From the NCBI GenBank assembly GCA_029856085.1, contig JAHQWI010000113.1, forward strand, positions 1 through 33,299: a stretch of 33,299 bases of DNA, given 5' to 3'. Shown here in pieces: positions 15,872-24,969 of this stretch. The translations under genes and the position numbers were made by a program. The DNA is from Promethearchaeia archaeon. GTDB taxonomy: Archaea; Asgardarchaeota; Lokiarchaeia; Sigyniarchaeales; SOKP01. Numbering within the stretch: position 1 is the stretch's first letter; the number at the start of each line of letters is the position of its first letter. The notes under the pieces were generated by a model. That model worked only from the letters and a program-made list of their open reading frames with translations, was not told where the DNA came from and ran no database searches.

Positions 15872-17077
15872 CTATTTCTTATTATTCACAAAGTGTTTTA
15901 AGACGATTATATAATTTTTTACTGTTAAAATTTTTGGATTCTTTCGATAATTCACTGGAATTGGGGCATTACATCGAGAGCAGAGATTTGAACTTCGTAA
16001 CCAATCCTTAAATTCGTCTGCGTGAGCAGGATATCGACAATTAGGACACAATATTATTCCTCTTCCTCTGTCTTCAGGGATTTTCGGTAATTTAAAACAG
16101 AAGATACATTTAAAATCCTCTGTTGATAAGCGTGCGGCTTTTGGCTTATATTGATTAAAATTTGTTATTTTTCTAGTACTTTGTTTACTTCTTACTTGTG
16201 TTCCCGTTGGACCTCTACTTGTAGTTCTATTTGTTGTTTTAGATCTTGATGTTGTAGATCGTCTTTGTGATGTTGGTGTTGATCTTGATGAATAACTAGC
16301 TGATCTTGATCTATTAGTTACAGTTCTATTTGAGGGTGTTGGAGATGATCTTGTTGTTGTTCGAGTGCTTTCTCTATATCTTCGAGGAGTTGTATTTCTT
16401 CTAGGTGATGCCAATTGATTTAACCTATTTGTACGTTGTGTTATGTAATCTCTTGTTAATTGGGGTAACCGTGATCGCGTCCCAAATAATCCAGGGATAA
16501 TAATTATTAATATAGTACTGATAAGCAATGCTAAAAGATTAAGATCTATTAAAAAATGAAGAGGTATTAAATGGAGTTCATAGAAGTCGATAAGTGAATA
16601 AAAGCTTATCCAATAAATAATTATAAAAAACAGAATTGAGATACCTAAAATATATCCAAATTTACGTGCATTTACGGATTTCGTTCCAAAATAAATTACA
16701 TTATATTTTTTGAAACAACGATATAGAGAAATTGACCCATATAATATATAAGGAAATCCAAATAGAATACTCCACCAGCTTAAATACAAATCTGTATCTT
16801 CTAGAAGATTTTCTCCCAATAAACCTGTAAAATTTCCCCAGATTGAATAAAAAATTCCAATAAAAACAGGAGCAATTGTAAAAAATGCAGTATTATGAGG
16901 TGAATTAAATTCGCGATATTGCTTAATATTTTTTAAAACCTTAAATGAAAATATTAGCCAGATTCCAATTAACAACCAACTTACAAAGACATTAACAGAA
17001 TTTAGAATAGCACCATGTATTATGCCGATAATTGAAAATGCAATTAATAGTAGAGCTATTGATTTAGTTTTCACCAC
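15872..17077 (-). CDS. Multi-pass membrane protein with SR/T-rich linker and C-terminal RING-like zinc finger; candidate E3 of the adjacent ubiquitin-like system
   Basis: About 6 hydrophobic segments (ALLLIAFSIIGIIHGAIL; FVSWLLIGIWLIFSF; FFTIAPVFIGIFYSIW; SILFGFPYILYGSISLY; GYILGISILFFIIIYWISF; LLALLISTILIIIIPGLFG), then a Ser/Thr/Arg low-complexity region, then CIFCFKLPKIPEDRGRGIILCPNCRYPAHADEFKDWLRSSNLCSRCNAPIP. Same strand and just downstream of the JAMM gene. Confidence 0.75.
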   Translation of the reverse strand: MVKTKSIALLLIAFSIIGIIHGAILNSVNVFVSWLLIGIWLIFSFKVLKNIKQYREFNSPHNTAFFTIAPVFIGIFYSIWGNFTGLLGENLLEDTDLYLSWWSILFGFPYILYGSISLYRCFKKYNVIYFGTKSVNARKFGYILGISILFFIIIYWISFYSLIDFYELHLIPLHFLIDLNLLALLISTILIIIIPGLFGTRSRLPQLTRDYITQRTNRLNQLASPRRNTTPRRYRESTRTTTRSSPTPSNRTVTNRSRSASYSSRSTPTSQRRSTTSRSKTTNRTTSRGPTGTQVRSKQSTRKITNFNQYKPKAARLSTEDFKCIFCFKLPKIPEDRGRGIILCPNCRYPAHADEFKDWLRSSNLCSRCNAPIPVNYRKNPKILTVKNYIIVLKHFVNNKK

Positions 17078-17106
17078 GGCTTAATAACCTCCTTCTATAT
17101 CATAAT

Positions 17107-17934
17107 TTAATCTTCGTCATATTCTAAATAAACTGGTTTCCCTTGAATAATAGGATTCATAAATGCTAAGATATCTGGTAACATTCGTATGTCTAATGAG
17201 CCTTTAATTCCATATAATAATGGATACCAAGTTTTTGTCTTCAGATTTGCTCGATAAATCTCAAAACCCGCTGAAGTTCCATCAATAAGGTAAGGATCAA
17301 TAACAAGTGCAACGGCTTTATCCCAGAGTTTTTGATATCTTTCTTGAGTGCCTATATCTTCACTAGACATGAAACAGCCAAAAGTTGGATGTGAATGATA
17401 CCATCCACACAAAAATAATTTCTGTTTTTTAATATCTCTATAAGCTCTCACATAATTCTTATAATCTTTAATTTCTGCATAAACTGCGGTTCCATGCCCC
17501 ATTGGGTAAGCATCTTCGATATGTAGTATATCATTTTTATCTAATTTTCCTCCAAGAAGCCCTATAACTTCCACCCAATTTACTTTTGGAATCTTATTAT
17601 TAGCATATTTAAGCGCATGGCTTGCTATTTTAAGGATTGCTTTTAATGATATATAGATTTCCTTTTGGATTTCCAGTTCAATTTGAGTTTCAACATTTTT
17701 TTTCTCTATCATTTTAGCTGTAGGTTCTTTTGAATGTTTTATAATTGGTTTAGCATTTGATTTCTGTGTAAGCATAGAAGTGATTTCTTCTGTTAATTCT
17801 TCTTCTTCTAATTTAAGCTCTTCACATATTTCATCTAATAATTCTTTTTTTATTTTTTCCTTAATTTTCCTCTTAATTTGATCTTTTATTGAATTATTAG
17901 ATAATTGTTTTTCTTCCATTAGGAAAATCACCAC
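17107..17934 (-). CDS. Rpn11/CSN5-like JAB1/MPN+/JAMM metalloprotease (candidate deubiquitinase)
   Basis: Full JAMM motif CGWYHSHPTFGCFMSSEDIGTQERYQ with upstream catalytic-type Glu (VNWVEVIGLLGG); ALVIDPYL as in Rpn11-type proteins; charged N-terminal extension. Confidence 0.95.
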   Translation of the reverse strand: MVIFLMEEKQLSNNSIKDQIKRKIKEKIKKELLDEICEELKLEEEELTEEITSMLTQKSNAKPIIKHSKEPTAKMIEKKNVETQIELEIQKEIYISLKAILKIASHALKYANNKIPKVNWVEVIGLLGGKLDKNDILHIEDAYPMGHGTAVYAEIKDYKNYVRAYRDIKKQKLFLCGWYHSHPTFGCFMSSEDIGTQERYQKLWDKAVALVIDPYLIDGTSAGFEIYRANLKTKTWYPLLYGIKGSLDIRMLPDILAFMNPIIQGKPVYLEYDED

Positions 17935-18455
17935 TTCTTATTTGCATACTTTTTTACTAAGTTTTTAACTTTTTTCTCGAAAAACTTAGGATTTTTCATC
18001 ATTTCTATTGCTGCTTTTTTATTAAAAACATCTGTTGGATTTACATATTTACCACGGGTGTTTAACATAGCAATTATTGCTTGAACAACTGTTACTGCTT
18101 TTTTTGATGGGCTCCATCCACCTTTTTTACCAATTAGAGAGGGATCTACTAAAGCTAAACAAATATTCCTCTGTCCTTTATATTCGGTAGGTTTTGGCCA
18201 AAAATTTGGATGCCATATTGGAGTATGCATTCTTACAAAAGGCGGTTGTTTAGGATACTGAGTAGGAAATTTCATTTCCAATTTAAAGACCCCCCCCCCA
18301 TATGCAGTACCCTTAGGACCTTTTATAGCTAGAGCTAAATGGTCAATACTCTTCTTTTTAGGATTAAATGGTTTTAATTGAACAATGGTTCCTTCCTTAA
18401 GCATTTTTTTTAATCCTGCAAAATCTTGGGAAATACGACTACTTCTTATACTCAT
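17928..18455 (-). CDS. E2 ubiquitin-conjugating enzyme-like (UBC fold)
   Basis: IKGPKGTAYGGGVFKLEMKFPTQYPKQPPFVRMHTPIWHPNFW...RNICLALVDPSLIGKKGGWSPSKKAVTVVQAIIAML: HPN motif and catalytic Cys in 'NICL'. Confidence 0.96.
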   Translation of the reverse strand: MSIRSSRISQDFAGLKKMLKEGTIVQLKPFNPKKKSIDHLALAIKGPKGTAYGGGVFKLEMKFPTQYPKQPPFVRMHTPIWHPNFWPKPTEYKGQRNICLALVDPSLIGKKGGWSPSKKAVTVVQAIIAMLNTRGKYVNPTDVFNKKAAIEMMKNPKFFEKKVKNLVKKYANKKW

Positions 18456-18556: not shown

Positions 18557-19792
18557 TTATCTCAATTTTAAGGTTACAAAAATTTCTCCATCTTTAAATC
18601 CTGCAGCTGTAATTAATTCATAATTTCTCAAACCATTTTCATCAGCGGTCTGTTCTAAATCTACAATCTTTATATCATTGAAATCTAATAAAGTAAGGAC
18701 TGGCTCAGAATCTTTATCCAGTTCAAAACCATTATTTTTCAATATCTCAATTAATCTTCCACAGGGTGATTGAGATCTTAATTTTATAGATACTCTTCGA
18801 ACATTTTTACCACATTGAGAACATTCTGGATTTCTTTGTTTTTCAATATGATAAAATTTCATGGTCATTGCATTTAAGATTATATAACTTTGAACAGGCT
18901 CACCTAATGCTTTATGTCCTTTTCTCCAATGAAGAATTTTTACTGCTTCATGTGATTGTAATGCAGAAATAACTGCATTTATGGTTATTATTCCAGGATC
19001 ATGTCTATCAATAATTATTACAATATCATCTTCTGTATATTCAGGTAAGAAATTATGTTTATTAACTAATTCATTTGCAACTTTTTGAATGAATTTAATA
19101 TCATTTATATTCTTTGGATTTGGATCTCTGTCAAATTTTTCTTTAAATGCCATATCTCCTTTAAAAACGCAATGAATTCTTTTTCGGGGAATTCCTACTA
19201 CCGTGCAAGCCGCCATCTCATCATTTCCTCCCATAGGCAACGGATTGCATTCATAACAAGCATTTTGATAAGGAAAAATTGTATATACATGGCCATGATA
19301 ACCAGATACACCTCCATCCACTAAAGGCTTTTTAAATCTTATACATTGAGCATTTAAGTTTAAACGTGCATTCATCGAATCAAGGCCACCTATGATAACA
19401 TCAGCAGCCTGATATATCGCAGGATTCAATCGTTCTAATGAAGTATAATATCCCTTGATAATGATATTAGGATTAATTTCCCTTAGTTTTCTAGCTGCAA
19501 TAATTGCCTTAGGCTCTCCGATCTTTGCTCCACTGAAAAGAATTTGTCGGTTCAAATTAGAGTGTTCAATGATATCTAAATCGACGAGATCTAAACAACC
19601 AACTCCAAGCATAGCTAAGTTCTTAGCAATTTCACAACCTAAACCACCAACACCAGCTATTAACACTCTCGAGTTTTTTACCAATTTCTGAGACCAACCC
19701 TCAAGACGAAACTGGCGATCATACAAATTTCTCTCTTCCACTGATAATTCTTTTCCGAAAAATTCTGAACCCTTATCCAATATTATCACCAT
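18557..19792 (-). CDS. E1-like ubiquitin-activating enzyme (UBA3-like: ThiF adenylation domain, catalytic Cys segment, two CxxC, UFD-like C-terminus)
   Basis: YDRQFRLEGWSQKLVKNSRVLIAGVGGLGCEIAKNLAMLGVG; DLDIIEHSNLNRQILFSGAKIG; CYECNP...AACTVVGIPRKRIHCVFK; NPECSQCG; C-terminal IEILKNNGFELDKDSEPVLTLLDFNDIKIV...ELITAAGFKDGEIFVTLKL. Confidence 0.95.
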   Translation of the reverse strand: MVIILDKGSEFFGKELSVEERNLYDRQFRLEGWSQKLVKNSRVLIAGVGGLGCEIAKNLAMLGVGCLDLVDLDIIEHSNLNRQILFSGAKIGEPKAIIAARKLREINPNIIIKGYYTSLERLNPAIYQAADVIIGGLDSMNARLNLNAQCIRFKKPLVDGGVSGYHGHVYTIFPYQNACYECNPLPMGGNDEMAACTVVGIPRKRIHCVFKGDMAFKEKFDRDPNPKNINDIKFIQKVANELVNKHNFLPEYTEDDIVIIIDRHDPGIITINAVISALQSHEAVKILHWRKGHKALGEPVQSYIILNAMTMKFYHIEKQRNPECSQCGKNVRRVSIKLRSQSPCGRLIEILKNNGFELDKDSEPVLTLLDFNDIKIVDLEQTADENGLRNYELITAAGFKDGEIFVTLKLR

Positions 19793-19871: not shown

Positions 19872-20207
19872 TTACCCAGCAGTACTGGCAGGAATCAAAA
19901 GAATATCATCTCCATCATTTACATGATATTCTTTTAATGAGCCATTTTCATCCATTGTCACTCCACCAGATGATAAATGAAAGTCATTAGGATCAAGTCC
20001 ATATAAATTTCCTAATGTTTGTTTAATGTCATCAACGCAATTTCCGTCATTCACAGTTAATTTTTCCTTCTTTTCACCAGGACCAATAGTTGACATAAAA
20101 TATAAAGTTATTTTCTTTCCTGTTGAAGGGATTTTAGTCATGGGTGTTTTAGATTTCATAGGTTCTTCCCCAACTAAATCCTCATCAAATTCTTCTTCAA
20201 AACTCAT
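19872..20207 (-). CDS. Ubiquitin-like modifier (Ubl-1), beta-grasp with acidic N-terminal extension, C-terminus ...PASTAG
   Basis: KKITLYFMSTIGPGEKKEKLTVNDGNCVDDIKQTLGNLYGLDPNDFHLSSGGVTMDENGSLKEYHVNDGDDILLIPASTAG; first gene of the E1/E2/JAMM/RING set. Confidence 0.9.
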   Translation of the reverse strand: MSFEEEFDEDLVGEEPMKSKTPMTKIPSTGKKITLYFMSTIGPGEKKEKLTVNDGNCVDDIKQTLGNLYGLDPNDFHLSSGGVTMDENGSLKEYHVNDGDDILLIPASTAG

Positions 20208-20366: not shown

Positions 20367-22709
20367 TCATGGCATGAAGGAAAATAGTTCCTCAATCTCA
20401 TCAATAGGTAATCTTGAAATAATTGAAGACGTGGGAGTTATAATCTGCCTTGATAACTTTCTTTTTTCCTCCAGTAGTTTATCAATCTTTTCTTCTATTG
20501 TTCCTGTAGCAACAAATTTATAAACATTAACATTCTGATCTTGACCAATCCGATAAGCTCTATCAGTAGCTTGTGACTCCGTGCTAGGATTCCACCACCG
20601 ATCTACATGTATTACAGTTGTTCCTTGGGTTAAATTTAAACCAAAACCACCAGCTTTTAGGGAAACAATTAGAATTTTTGAACTTACCTCTTTACTTGAT
20701 TGAAAATCCTTTACAATCTTATCTCTTTGATTGGGATTCAAGCTACCATGAAAAAATGATATTATTTCCCCAAATTTAGCGTTAAAAGCCATTAGTAAAA
20801 TATCCCCCAACGTTTTATACTGTGAAAATATGAGAACCTTTTGGTCATTTTCAAGAATGTTCTCAACAATATCAAAAATCCTCGCGATTTTAGGAGATTG
20901 TATTAGAAAATCCTTGAGGTTTTTCTTAAAATCATATTTGGCTGGATCAATTTTAAGATATTGTAATGGGTGATTGCAAAGTTGTTTTAGCTTAGTTAAT
21001 AGTTTAAGTACAAGCCCACTTCGCATTTTTGCACTATCATAATTTTCTCTTATATCCTTAATGACTTCATCCACGATTTTTTTGTATAGGCTTATTTGGA
21101 AGGCAGACAGGTTAATATATATCGTTATTTCATTTTTTTCCGGTAAATCTTTAATCACATTTTTGTCTGCTTTTAAACGTCTCAATATAAAGGGATCTAT
21201 AATTGCTTTTAGCTTTTTGATTTTTTCGACATTTTGATAAACCTCAATCGGATTGACAAATGTTTTCCTAAACTCACTCAATGAACCTAATAGTCCAGGA
21301 TTTAGAAAATTAAAAAGCGACCATAATTCATCGAGACGATTTTCTATGGGAGTACCACTTAATGCGATTCTAAAAACCCCTTTTAATTGGTAAATGGATT
21401 TGGCTCTTTTGGAATTAGAATTTTTAATATTTGTCGACTCATCAATTATAATACCATTAAATTTTATATCTTTTAGGAAGTCTATGTCGTTTCTTATGAC
21501 TCCGTAGGAAGTTAAAATTATTTGGTGAGCAATAAGAAAGACATCTCTCTTATCACGGAGATTCCCCCTATTCGGGCCATAGTATTTCAAAACCTTCAAT
21601 TTGGGAGAAAATCTCATTATCTCATGCTCCCAGTTAGTTAATAAGGATGTAGGACACACGATTAAAACGCTACCTTCTTCATTAGGATAATTCTCTAGTC
21701 GGTATAAGAGATAAGCTAGAATTTGTATGGTCTTACCGAGGCCCATATCATCTCCCAAGCATACTCCTAACCCTATATCACATAACATCGCTAACCAAGA
21801 AAGTCCCACCTGCTGGTAATCCCTTAGTTCACCCACGAAATCTTTTGGGACCTCTATTAGTTTAAAATTTAACTTATTCTTGATATTATTTATTTTTATT
21901 CTAAGATCTCCTAAAAATTTAATTTTATAATCTCTTCTCAAAAGTAAATTCGTGTATTTATCTATTAGCTCTAATTTTATTACCTCTGCTATCTTCATTT
22001 TACCAGAAAATCCATTACTAGCATAAATCTTCTTTAAAAAATCTAGATCTTCCTTGTTAATGAAAACCCATTTATTATCTCTCCATTTTATCAACGGATT
22101 ATCCATTTTCGATAATTTTTTCAATTCGTCTAATCCTACAGGTTTTCCGAAAAGAATAATTTCCCATCTGAAATCTACCAGAGAATCTAAACTAAAATCA
22201 GATTTAATTTTAAATGTTTTGGACTCGATCAATAATCTGGCCGATAAACCTCTCTTCTGTGTCAATCTTAATTTGGCGGGGTATTGAACCTTAAATCCAA
22301 TATATTTAAGTAACTCTATTGGATGGGTAAGAAATTCAGAAACCTCGGAAGAAGTCATCTCAATATTTTGGGGGTATTTGTTCTTTAAAGCGCGGTTTAA
22401 GGGAGGAAATACTTTAGTTGCTATTCTCATCGAATCTAAAAGCATGTTTAGAAACTTCTTTTTTTTTAAAAGAATGCTCACAAGCTTTTCACGAAATAAC
22501 TCATCATAATTCCACAAATCAGCCAATGGTGTAAAAAAGTTATCATTATGGAATTTTAGATAAAATTTGATTGGCCATCTATCCGACTCGTTTTTAGGCA
22601 ATTCTATCGAGATATAGAACTCCACTGTTTTATGAAAGATTGGCTTAAGTTTTGCTTGAAATTTTGGATCAAACTTCTTATTATTAGAGAAATCTTCTAT
22701 AAACTCCAA
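20367..22709 (-). CDS. SNF2-family DNA-dependent ATPase/helicase (N-terminus probably extends to 22767 through an apparent frameshift)
   Basis: LRDYQQVGLSWLAMLCDIGLGVCLGDDMGLGKTIQILAYL; IIIDESTNIKN; ALSGTPIENRLDELWSLFNFLNPG; QSSKEVSSKILIVSLKAGGFGLNLTQGTTVIHVDRWWNPSTESQATDRAYRIGQ. Confidence 0.95.
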   Translation of the reverse strand: MEFIEDFSNNKKFDPKFQAKLKPIFHKTVEFYISIELPKNESDRWPIKFYLKFHNDNFFTPLADLWNYDELFREKLVSILLKKKKFLNMLLDSMRIATKVFPPLNRALKNKYPQNIEMTSSEVSEFLTHPIELLKYIGFKVQYPAKLRLTQKRGLSARLLIESKTFKIKSDFSLDSLVDFRWEIILFGKPVGLDELKKLSKMDNPLIKWRDNKWVFINKEDLDFLKKIYASNGFSGKMKIAEVIKLELIDKYTNLLLRRDYKIKFLGDLRIKINNIKNKLNFKLIEVPKDFVGELRDYQQVGLSWLAMLCDIGLGVCLGDDMGLGKTIQILAYLLYRLENYPNEEGSVLIVCPTSLLTNWEHEIMRFSPKLKVLKYYGPNRGNLRDKRDVFLIAHQIILTSYGVIRNDIDFLKDIKFNGIIIDESTNIKNSNSKRAKSIYQLKGVFRIALSGTPIENRLDELWSLFNFLNPGLLGSLSEFRKTFVNPIEVYQNVEKIKKLKAIIDPFILRRLKADKNVIKDLPEKNEITIYINLSAFQISLYKKIVDEVIKDIRENYDSAKMRSGLVLKLLTKLKQLCNHPLQYLKIDPAKYDFKKNLKDFLIQSPKIARIFDIVENILENDQKVLIFSQYKTLGDILLMAFNAKFGEIISFFHGSLNPNQRDKIVKDFQSSKEVSSKILIVSLKAGGFGLNLTQGTTVIHVDRWWNPSTESQATDRAYRIGQDQNVNVYKFVATGTIEEKIDKLLEEKRKLSRQIITPTSSIISRLPIDEIEELFSFMP

Positions 22710-23753: not shown

Positions 23754-24551
23754 ATGAGGAAAAAATATAGAACATTAAGCGTTATTACTCTCTACGCTAT
23801 TTTTGTTTTAATTTACATAAGTTTTTTCCTATTTGGAATAAATAATACCCCGTTATTTCTTACACTAACAATTGGGAGTGTTGCAGTTCTCTCAACTAGT
23901 ACAATCTACACAGTTATCCAATCTAAAGGTTATCAACATGATAAAATAAGAGATAAGAAATATTCACCGAAACCTAAGTCTATCCATAATATAGACGAGA
24001 AAATTATTGATGATTATCTTGAGGCTTTGCCTTCAATAGAAGAATATCTTGATTCAAATGAAACTTATGAGGATATACCAATGATCAATAAATACATTTT
24101 TTCAGTTTTTAGTAAGGAAGAATTGGGAAAAATAAACTATCTTGGATTGTCAAAGCTTGACAAAATACTATTTATTAGAGAAATGCTCTATTTTGATGAA
24201 GATGAGCGAAAAGTATTAATCGACAACATGCTTAAGAACAGAGATAAAACTGATGAGGAAATATTTTATATACCCCCAAAGAATACAGTTAATCTAAAGG
24301 ATCAGATCCGCGTTTACATAAGGTCTTTAGCCGAGGCCGGCGAGATAACAAAGTTGATCATTGTTGATACAACTGAATTAATTAGTACTATTAAAGAGAG
24401 AGTAGGAGTATTATTTAATTATGAATTGAAGGATTTCCTGTTATCTTCAGGGGGCATCTTACTATCAGAAGAAAAGAAAATACAAGACTATGATATTGAT
24501 GACGATGATGAAATTGCTCTGATTCCCTCTAGAAAAAAAAAAAATAATTAA
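23754..24551 (+). CDS. Membrane protein with two N-terminal TM segments and a C-terminal ubiquitin-like domain lacking a conjugatable tail
   Basis: TM1 TLSVITLYAIFVLIYISFFLFGI, TM2 PLFLTLTIGSVAVLSTSTIYTVI; C-terminus LIIVDTTELISTIKERVGVLFNYELKDFLLSSGGILLSEEKKIQDYDIDDDDEIALIPSRKKKNN aligns without gaps to Ubl-2 (KLLINSGNLVGDIKETVANLFGLDPDDFYLSSGGVTMDEQNPLKDYYVDDGDDILLIPASIAG). Confidence 0.8.
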   Translation: MRKKYRTLSVITLYAIFVLIYISFFLFGINNTPLFLTLTIGSVAVLSTSTIYTVIQSKGYQHDKIRDKKYSPKPKSIHNIDEKIIDDYLEALPSIEEYLDSNETYEDIPMINKYIFSVFSKEELGKINYLGLSKLDKILFIREMLYFDEDERKVLIDNMLKNRDKTDEEIFYIPPKNTVNLKDQIRVYIRSLAEAGEITKLIIVDTTELISTIKERVGVLFNYELKDFLLSSGGILLSEEKKIQDYDIDDDDEIALIPSRKKKNN

Positions 24552-24597: not shown

Positions 24598-24969
24598 TTA
24601 ACCAGCAATACTTGCTGGAATTAAAAGTATATCATCTCCGTCATCTACATAATAATCTTTTAAAGGGTTCTGTTCATCCATTGTTACTCCTCCAGAACTT
24701 AAATAAAAATCATCTGGATCTAAACCAAATAAATTTGCTACTGTTTCTTTAATATCTCCAACAAGATTTCCAGAATTTATGAGTAATTTTTGTTTTTTCT
24801 CACCAGGGCCAATAGTTGACATAAAATATACTGAAATCTTTTTCCCCTCAGGAACAGCCTTCGCAGCAGGAGTTTTTGAATTTATTTCTTTCCCGGGGAT
24901 TTGATCCATTTCTTCATCCAGATCTTCATCAAGTTCTAATTCTTCATCAAATTCTTCATCAAATCCCAT
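24598..24969 (-). CDS. Ubiquitin-like modifier paralog (Ubl-2), highly acidic N-terminal extension, C-terminus ...PASIAG
   Basis: KKISVYFMSTIGPGEKKQKLLINSGNLVGDIKETVANLFGLDPDDFYLSSGGVTMDEQNPLKDYYVDDGDDILLIPASIAG; ungapped alignment with Ubl-1. Confidence 0.88.
   Translation of the reverse strand: MGFDEEFDEELELDEDLDEEMDQIPGKEINSKTPAAKAVPEGKKISVYFMSTIGPGEKKQKLLINSGNLVGDIKETVANLFGLDPDDFYLSSGGVTMDEQNPLKDYYVDDGDDILLIPASIAG

Follow-up and report, generated by a model that had tools for sequence, protein, structure and literature searches.

A six-TM protein with a tethered RING-type finger as a candidate E3 component of the Asgard ubiquitin operon

Where does ubiquitin act in an archaeal cell? The archaeal ubiquitin cascade that has been reconstituted used a small soluble RING, and the published operon RING, the small RING finger protein (srfp, an E3) of Caldiarchaeum subterraneum (PMC5654768), is small and soluble, as the original prediction for this locus had stated. 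The window analyzed here, the whole 33,299-nucleotide stretch of a Promethearchaeia archaeon (contig JAHQWI010000113.1), holds a ubiquitin operon in which a membrane-tethered counterpart may take that place. We call its gene TMR, and we asked what its product is and whether it could bring ubiquitin to a membrane.

The TMR gene and its operon

The open reading frame proposed at 15872-17077 was borne out, and we place it on the minus strand, which the prediction had not given. The gene starts with tandem GTG codons and is the last of five on one strand, the others encoding, according to Pfam, a ubiquitin-like modifier, E1, E2 and a JAB isopeptidase (Table 1). The E2 gene overlaps that of JAB by 7 bp, 29 bp lie between JAB and TMR, and folE2 follows TMR in convergent orientation. 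TMR occupies the place of the co-operonic RING partner in the archaeal ubiquitin operon (Ub-E1-E2-RING-JAB). Searched alone, the window TMR protein matched no Pfam family above cut-off, and the NCBIfam search gave nothing usable.

Table 1. Features of TMR and its operon in the window
Feature	Position	Strand	Details
Helix C-terminal to finger, aa 386-399	15881..15922	minus	AlphaFold2
RING-type finger, aa 320-371	15965..16120	minus	C324 C327 C344 C347 H352 C366 C369; E355 at the sixth position
Tether, aa 201-305	16163..16477	minus	R/S/T-rich, largely disordered, lysine-depleted
Membrane domain, aa 1-200	16478..17077	minus	six predicted TM helices; AlphaFold2, charge pattern
TMR gene (name used here)	15872..17077	minus	401 aa; predicted six-TM protein, tethered C-terminal RING-type finger
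Shine-Dalgarno-like AAGGAGG	17088..17094	minus	sequence; 10 nt upstream of first GTG
JAB/Rpn11-like isopeptidase	17107..17934	minus	PF01398 E 1e-16; HSHP-x6-S-x2-D motif in sequence
E2	17928..18455	minus	PF00179 E 5e-25; HPN, catalytic C99
E1, ThiF family	18557..19792	minus	PF00899 E 2e-57
Ubiquitin-like modifier	19872..20207	minus	C-terminus IPASTAG; PF00240 E 4e-5, just below cut-off

The distribution of TMR across Asgard lineages rules out a genome-specific oddity. Homologs were found in 86 of 99 relatives (E <= 0.01, finger-only matches included), and the collection scan recovered carriers in Lokiarchaeota, Helarchaeota, Sigynarchaeota, Sifarchaeum, Borrarchaeum, Prometheoarchaeum sp., Lokiarchaeum ossiferum, Hodarchaeota and Heimdallarchaeota. 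An ortholog in identical gene order is present in Candidatus Lokiarchaeum ossiferum, whose genome is complete (L128, CP104013). Among the 73 loci having upstream DNA, a JAB gene lies directly upstream of TMR in 72, from Lokiarchaeia to Heimdallarchaeia; the complete Ub-E1-E2-JAB-TMR order occurs in 55 loci, and Heimdallarchaeota keep E2-JAB-TMR together with Ub-E1 a few kb downstream. The comparison with other Asgard loci that the original prediction had called for therefore identifies the gene as a conserved operon component in several lineages.

We tabulated the co-occurrence of TMR with the operon E2 using cut-offs of our own choice (TMR, E 1e-37 plus one split gene; E2, E 1e-45). Of 232 Asgard genomes, 102 carried both and five, mostly draft assemblies, were discordant, these being raw counts over related genomes. 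One genus of the same family, which includes members 90-100% complete, has neither TMR nor the operon E2 and carries only a different E2. All three trees, of TMR, E2 and JAB, recover the Hod and Heimdall groups, and their patristic distances show a correlation of 0.93, a pattern consistent with vertical co-inheritance.

Other ubiquitin-system genes were observed in and around these loci. A second, separate pair of E1 (476-530 aa) and E2 (about 172 aa) occurs in L172 (the genome of the window), L176, L177 and L189, and is retained in the genus without operon E2 and TMR. In the window, the ubiquitin gene is directly preceded on its own strand by a gene for an SNF2-type helicase, judged by sequence motifs (20367-22709, minus). 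The operon ubiquitin and a second ubiquitin (24598-24969, minus) have a conserved C-terminal LLIPxS[TIV]AG (orthologs L073-L152), with up to about 5 additional residues behind it in some genomes; the Ala-Gly instead of Gly-Gly terminus spans the Loki, Hod and Heimdall lineages, and the ubiquitin of another Asgard lineage (L237) terminates in GG. Divergent to the second ubiquitin gene is a gene, conserved in many relatives, for a protein of 265 aa whose C-terminal domain is ubiquitin-like (23754-24551, plus; PF00240 E 7e-6).

Membrane domain and tether

About six TM segments had been proposed for TMR, and AlphaFold2 with 54 orthologs supports this count, with long helices at residues 2-25, 28-57, 60-80, 101-123, 137-162 and 179-197. 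We based the count on the model and the charge pattern rather than on a simple hydropathy threshold, which gave five segments in the window protein and two to six in orthologs. The net charges of the N-terminus, the loops and the C-flank in the 54 orthologs are, in turn, +1.9, -0.5, +2.0, -1.9, +5.6, -1.3 and +3.4, and by the positive-inside rule this alternation would place both ends and the finger in the cytoplasm. TMR is therefore predicted to be a six-pass membrane protein with cytoplasmic N- and C-termini, and the lumenal or extracellular finger that had been named as fatal to the E3 proposal is ruled out by the charge pattern. A structure search against the PDB library returned no match to the TM domain, only matches to RING parts. 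Homology to known membrane proteins is unsupported, the PFF1_TM match of one ortholog being below cut-off.

The SR/T-rich disordered linker of the original prediction was recovered as the tether. Residues 226-301 are predicted to be disordered (AlphaFold2 pLDDT < 50), and S, T, R and P make up 67% of the 105-aa linker. The tether ranges from about 60 to 120 residues and is poorly conserved in sequence (identity 0.24 among orthologs), with a persistent composition. Its median K/(K+R) is 0.22, against 0.73 for the operon enzymes, and it falls below the operon-enzyme background in 72 of 72 loci having a background value; Sifarchaeum and Borrarchaeum have tethers without strong lysine depletion. 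No other basic segment in 563 proteins of two Lokiarchaea (overall K/(K+R) 0.70) is as poor in lysine as the window tether. Lysine deserts occur in eukaryotic ubiquitin-system proteins, many E3s included, and lysines added to such deserts lead to more ubiquitylation (PMC10169902). By analogy, the lysine-poor tether may avoid self-ubiquitylation; S/T/R codon slippage is a possible alternative origin of its composition.

The TM domain without known relative, the low identity of the tether and its S/T/R repeats, which could come from slippage, would also fit an unrelated membrane protein, its zinc finger being structural and its place in the operon incidental, with the tether a neutral by-product of repeat slippage. 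We regard this as very improbable, given that TMR co-occurs and is co-inherited with the operon, that the genus without the operon E2 is also without TMR, and that the finger is homologous to the operon RING described below.

Two kinds of TMR paralog were observed. In four Lokiarchaeal genomes (L138, L140, L141 and L142), a paralog without TM helices adjoins another ubiquitin gene and combines a short basic, possibly amphipathic N-terminus and a near-repeat R/T tether with the same finger. A finger-less TM paralog immediately follows TMR in loci of the Hodarchaeota type (L143:6733-7317, L144:6682-7227 and L149:11119-11664).

The RING-type finger

The Cys/His motif quoted in the original prediction is exact in the sequence, and the full finger pattern reads C324-I-F-C327-x16-C344-P-N-C347-RYPAH352-ADEFKDW359-L-x5-C366-S-R-C369. 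None of the 56 sequences departs from the seven Cys/His ligands, W359 or R368. The finger lacks a complete eight-ligand C3HC4/C3H2C3 set or known variant, the sixth ligand position being Glu in 55 of 56 and Ala in one Helarchaeon. Within TMR, the finger is the region of strongest conservation and selection, with a dN/dS of 0.035-0.09 as compared to 0.10-0.20 for the TM region and 0.25-0.51 for the tether (dS saturated in some pairs). Together with the homologs and the position kept behind JAB, these values rule out a chance reading frame.

The isolated finger was modeled by AlphaFold2 with a pLDDT of 87 and a pTM of 0.75, and the model has the beta-beta-alpha core of the cross-brace fold. The Foldseek top 50 comprised RINGs and U-boxes together with the RING-like ends of IFT144 and GATOR2, at modest E-values (best 0.0056; Prp19 U-box, 1.8 A over 64 columns). 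No plain zinc ribbon was among these 50 and the profile matches were also RING; a PHD finger is not supported by the fold and profile results. The RING-like assignment thus survived the structure check proposed for it, as a RING/U-box fold whose profiles match Asgard RINGs.

The TMR family profile matches Asgard soluble RINGs (alignment A5) in hhalign at 98.6%, E 1.3e-15, and these in turn match eukaryotic RINGs (RNF24 1.4e-7, Listerin 9e-7; also Arkadia and AMFR). The significant relation to known RINGs runs through these soluble proteins, the direct TMR profile-to-PDB match being weak (RNF24, E 0.014). In another Asgard lineage (L237), the gene of an 83-aa soluble RING overlaps the ubiquitin gene start, followed by E2 and E1; this RING aligns with the TMR finger at 97.5%, with the CPxCxxPAH core common to both. 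This homology and the operon position suggest that TMR is the operon RING plus an added membrane domain.

The soluble Asgard RINGs share with TMR the spacing C-x2-C ... C-P-x-C-x4-H-x2-[H/E] ... W-x6-C-x2-C, and differ from it in that most have no membrane domain, have His as sixth ligand and CPxC, and lie outside the Ub operon in Lokiarchaea. A soluble protein of 175-184 aa, its RING canonical in appearance (H-x2-H, Lys following the last Cys), was observed outside the operon in Lokiarchaea (L171:640-1167, in the genome of the window; L182 and L183). In other Asgard proteins the same finger type recurs with a C-terminal TM helix (L072:5681-6385), behind helical-repeat-like regions (L231 and L234), in a large L235 protein with two hydrophobic segments, and in another carrier, L232.

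We compared the finger with srfp, in which I30, W58 and R69 matter and mutation of I30 or W58 impairs ubiquitylation, and in which the third and fourth ligands are displaced and an extra cysteine is present (PMC5654768). Like srfp and the L237 RING, TMR is encoded in or beside the Ub-E1-E2 genes, and like srfp it has displaced third and fourth ligands, an extra cysteine and an E2-face hydrophobic residue plus Trp, a likeness taken from the published description, with the 83-aa Asgard operon RING as stand-in for sequence alignment. Unlike these two short soluble proteins, TMR has six predicted TM helices and a long tether (401 vs 83 aa), Glu instead of His as sixth ligand, and no Arg linchpin. 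The predicted E2-face residues of TMR are the hydrophobic residue before the second Cys (position 326, F or I in 56/56) and the helix Trp (W359, 56/56), corresponding to srfp I30 and W58. The operon E2 retains the RING-facing motifs PxxPPF and WSP in the alignment. The E2-binding surface whose absence had been expected to tell against an E3 is therefore predicted from invariant residues, and the sequence gives good support to E2 docking by the finger.

Activation of transfer is less supported than E2 docking. A cationic linchpin, as in RING E3 ligases, is absent: position 370, after the last Cys, is D, N, S, G or A in the 56 sequences and never Arg or Lys. The CPxC position is CSRC or CARC, with Ser or Ala for Pro. 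Because of these features and the Glu sixth ligand, E2~Ub activation may be weak; that the invariant R368 substitutes for the linchpin is speculation. The same features would suit a pseudo-RING scaffold that binds the operon E2 and concentrates E2~Ub at the membrane without activating transfer itself, with the E2 by itself or a different RING, such as the canonical soluble one with a Lys linchpin in the same genome, supplying the chemistry. The structural and profile matches include IFT144 and GATOR2, whose RING-like domains have a structural role and are not established as ligases. However, H352 and W359 are invariant in TMR and the aligned IFT144 segment has neither. In addition, RBX1 is active with an Asn linchpin, its activity being tuned by that residue (PMC12326332), and Asn stands at this position in Hod and Heimdall TMR. 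We consider a scaffold without activation of its own unlikely.

The gene order, in which TMR is coupled most tightly to JAB, and weak Pfam zf_UBZ matches in 52 of 56 fingers raise another alternative, a ubiquitin- or JAB-binding adaptor that keeps JAB or the modifier at the membrane, where deubiquitylation or processing would take place, and has no direct E2 role. The UBZ match of the window finger spans only 13 residues and is below cut-off, the fold and profile matches are RING, and the E2-face residues are invariant; we judge an adaptor of this kind quite improbable.

Proposed role at the membrane

Our preferred explanation, to which we assign a probability of about 0.68, is that TMR serves the Asgard ubiquitin operon as its RING E3 (or E3-like) component, carried on a six-TM anchor by a flexible lysine-poor tether. 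The membrane domain would anchor TMR with both ends cytoplasmic, and the tether would let the RING sweep the nearby membrane surface. The RING would dock the operon E2~Ub, with the PxxPPF and WSP loops of the E2 against F326 and W359, and deliver it to membrane-embedded or membrane-associated proteins, and the neighboring JAB would mature the modifier, remove it, or both. We infer E2 binding, ligase activity and membrane substrates from the computed features, and TMR may act as an E2 scaffold or a weak ligase.

The original prediction likened TMR to eukaryotic ER-membrane E3s. Hrd1/synoviolin and gp78/AMFR have several TM helices, a cytosolic RING and disordered cytosolic sequence. The likeness holds for the architecture only: the TM domain of TMR has no solved structural match, and the PDB library structure search found neither a homologous multi-TM domain shared with Hrd1/gp78-type E3s nor evidence for common descent of the membrane parts. 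The long tether of TMR sits between TM domain and RING, unlike in Hrd1 and gp78. The RING of Listerin (Ltn1) is a eukaryotic precedent for the spacing, with CPTC-x4-H-x2-C, and differs from TMR in its Cys sixth ligand, the Arg after the last Cys and the lack of a TM domain. We found no description of the TMR protein in the open-access literature that we searched, and term searches in the main text of the Asgard ubiquitin-ESCRT paper revealed no RING partner.

The eukaryotic ubiquitin-ESCRT machinery sorts ubiquitylated membrane proteins, and TMR would connect naturally to its Asgard counterpart. That TMR is kept next to the ubiquitin genes in many Asgard archaea suggests membrane-based attachment of ubiquitin in these relatives of eukaryotes. 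It is conceivable, at slightly less than even odds, that ubiquitylation at the membrane by a polytopic RING was the default ancestral form of the operon in the ancestor of Lokiarchaeia, Hodarchaeia and Heimdallarchaeia, in which case a tethered E3 would predate eukaryotic endomembranes and their membrane-bound ligases. Conserved within the operon in Asgard lineages close to eukaryotes, TMR is a concrete candidate answer to where ubiquitin acts in the archaeal cell.
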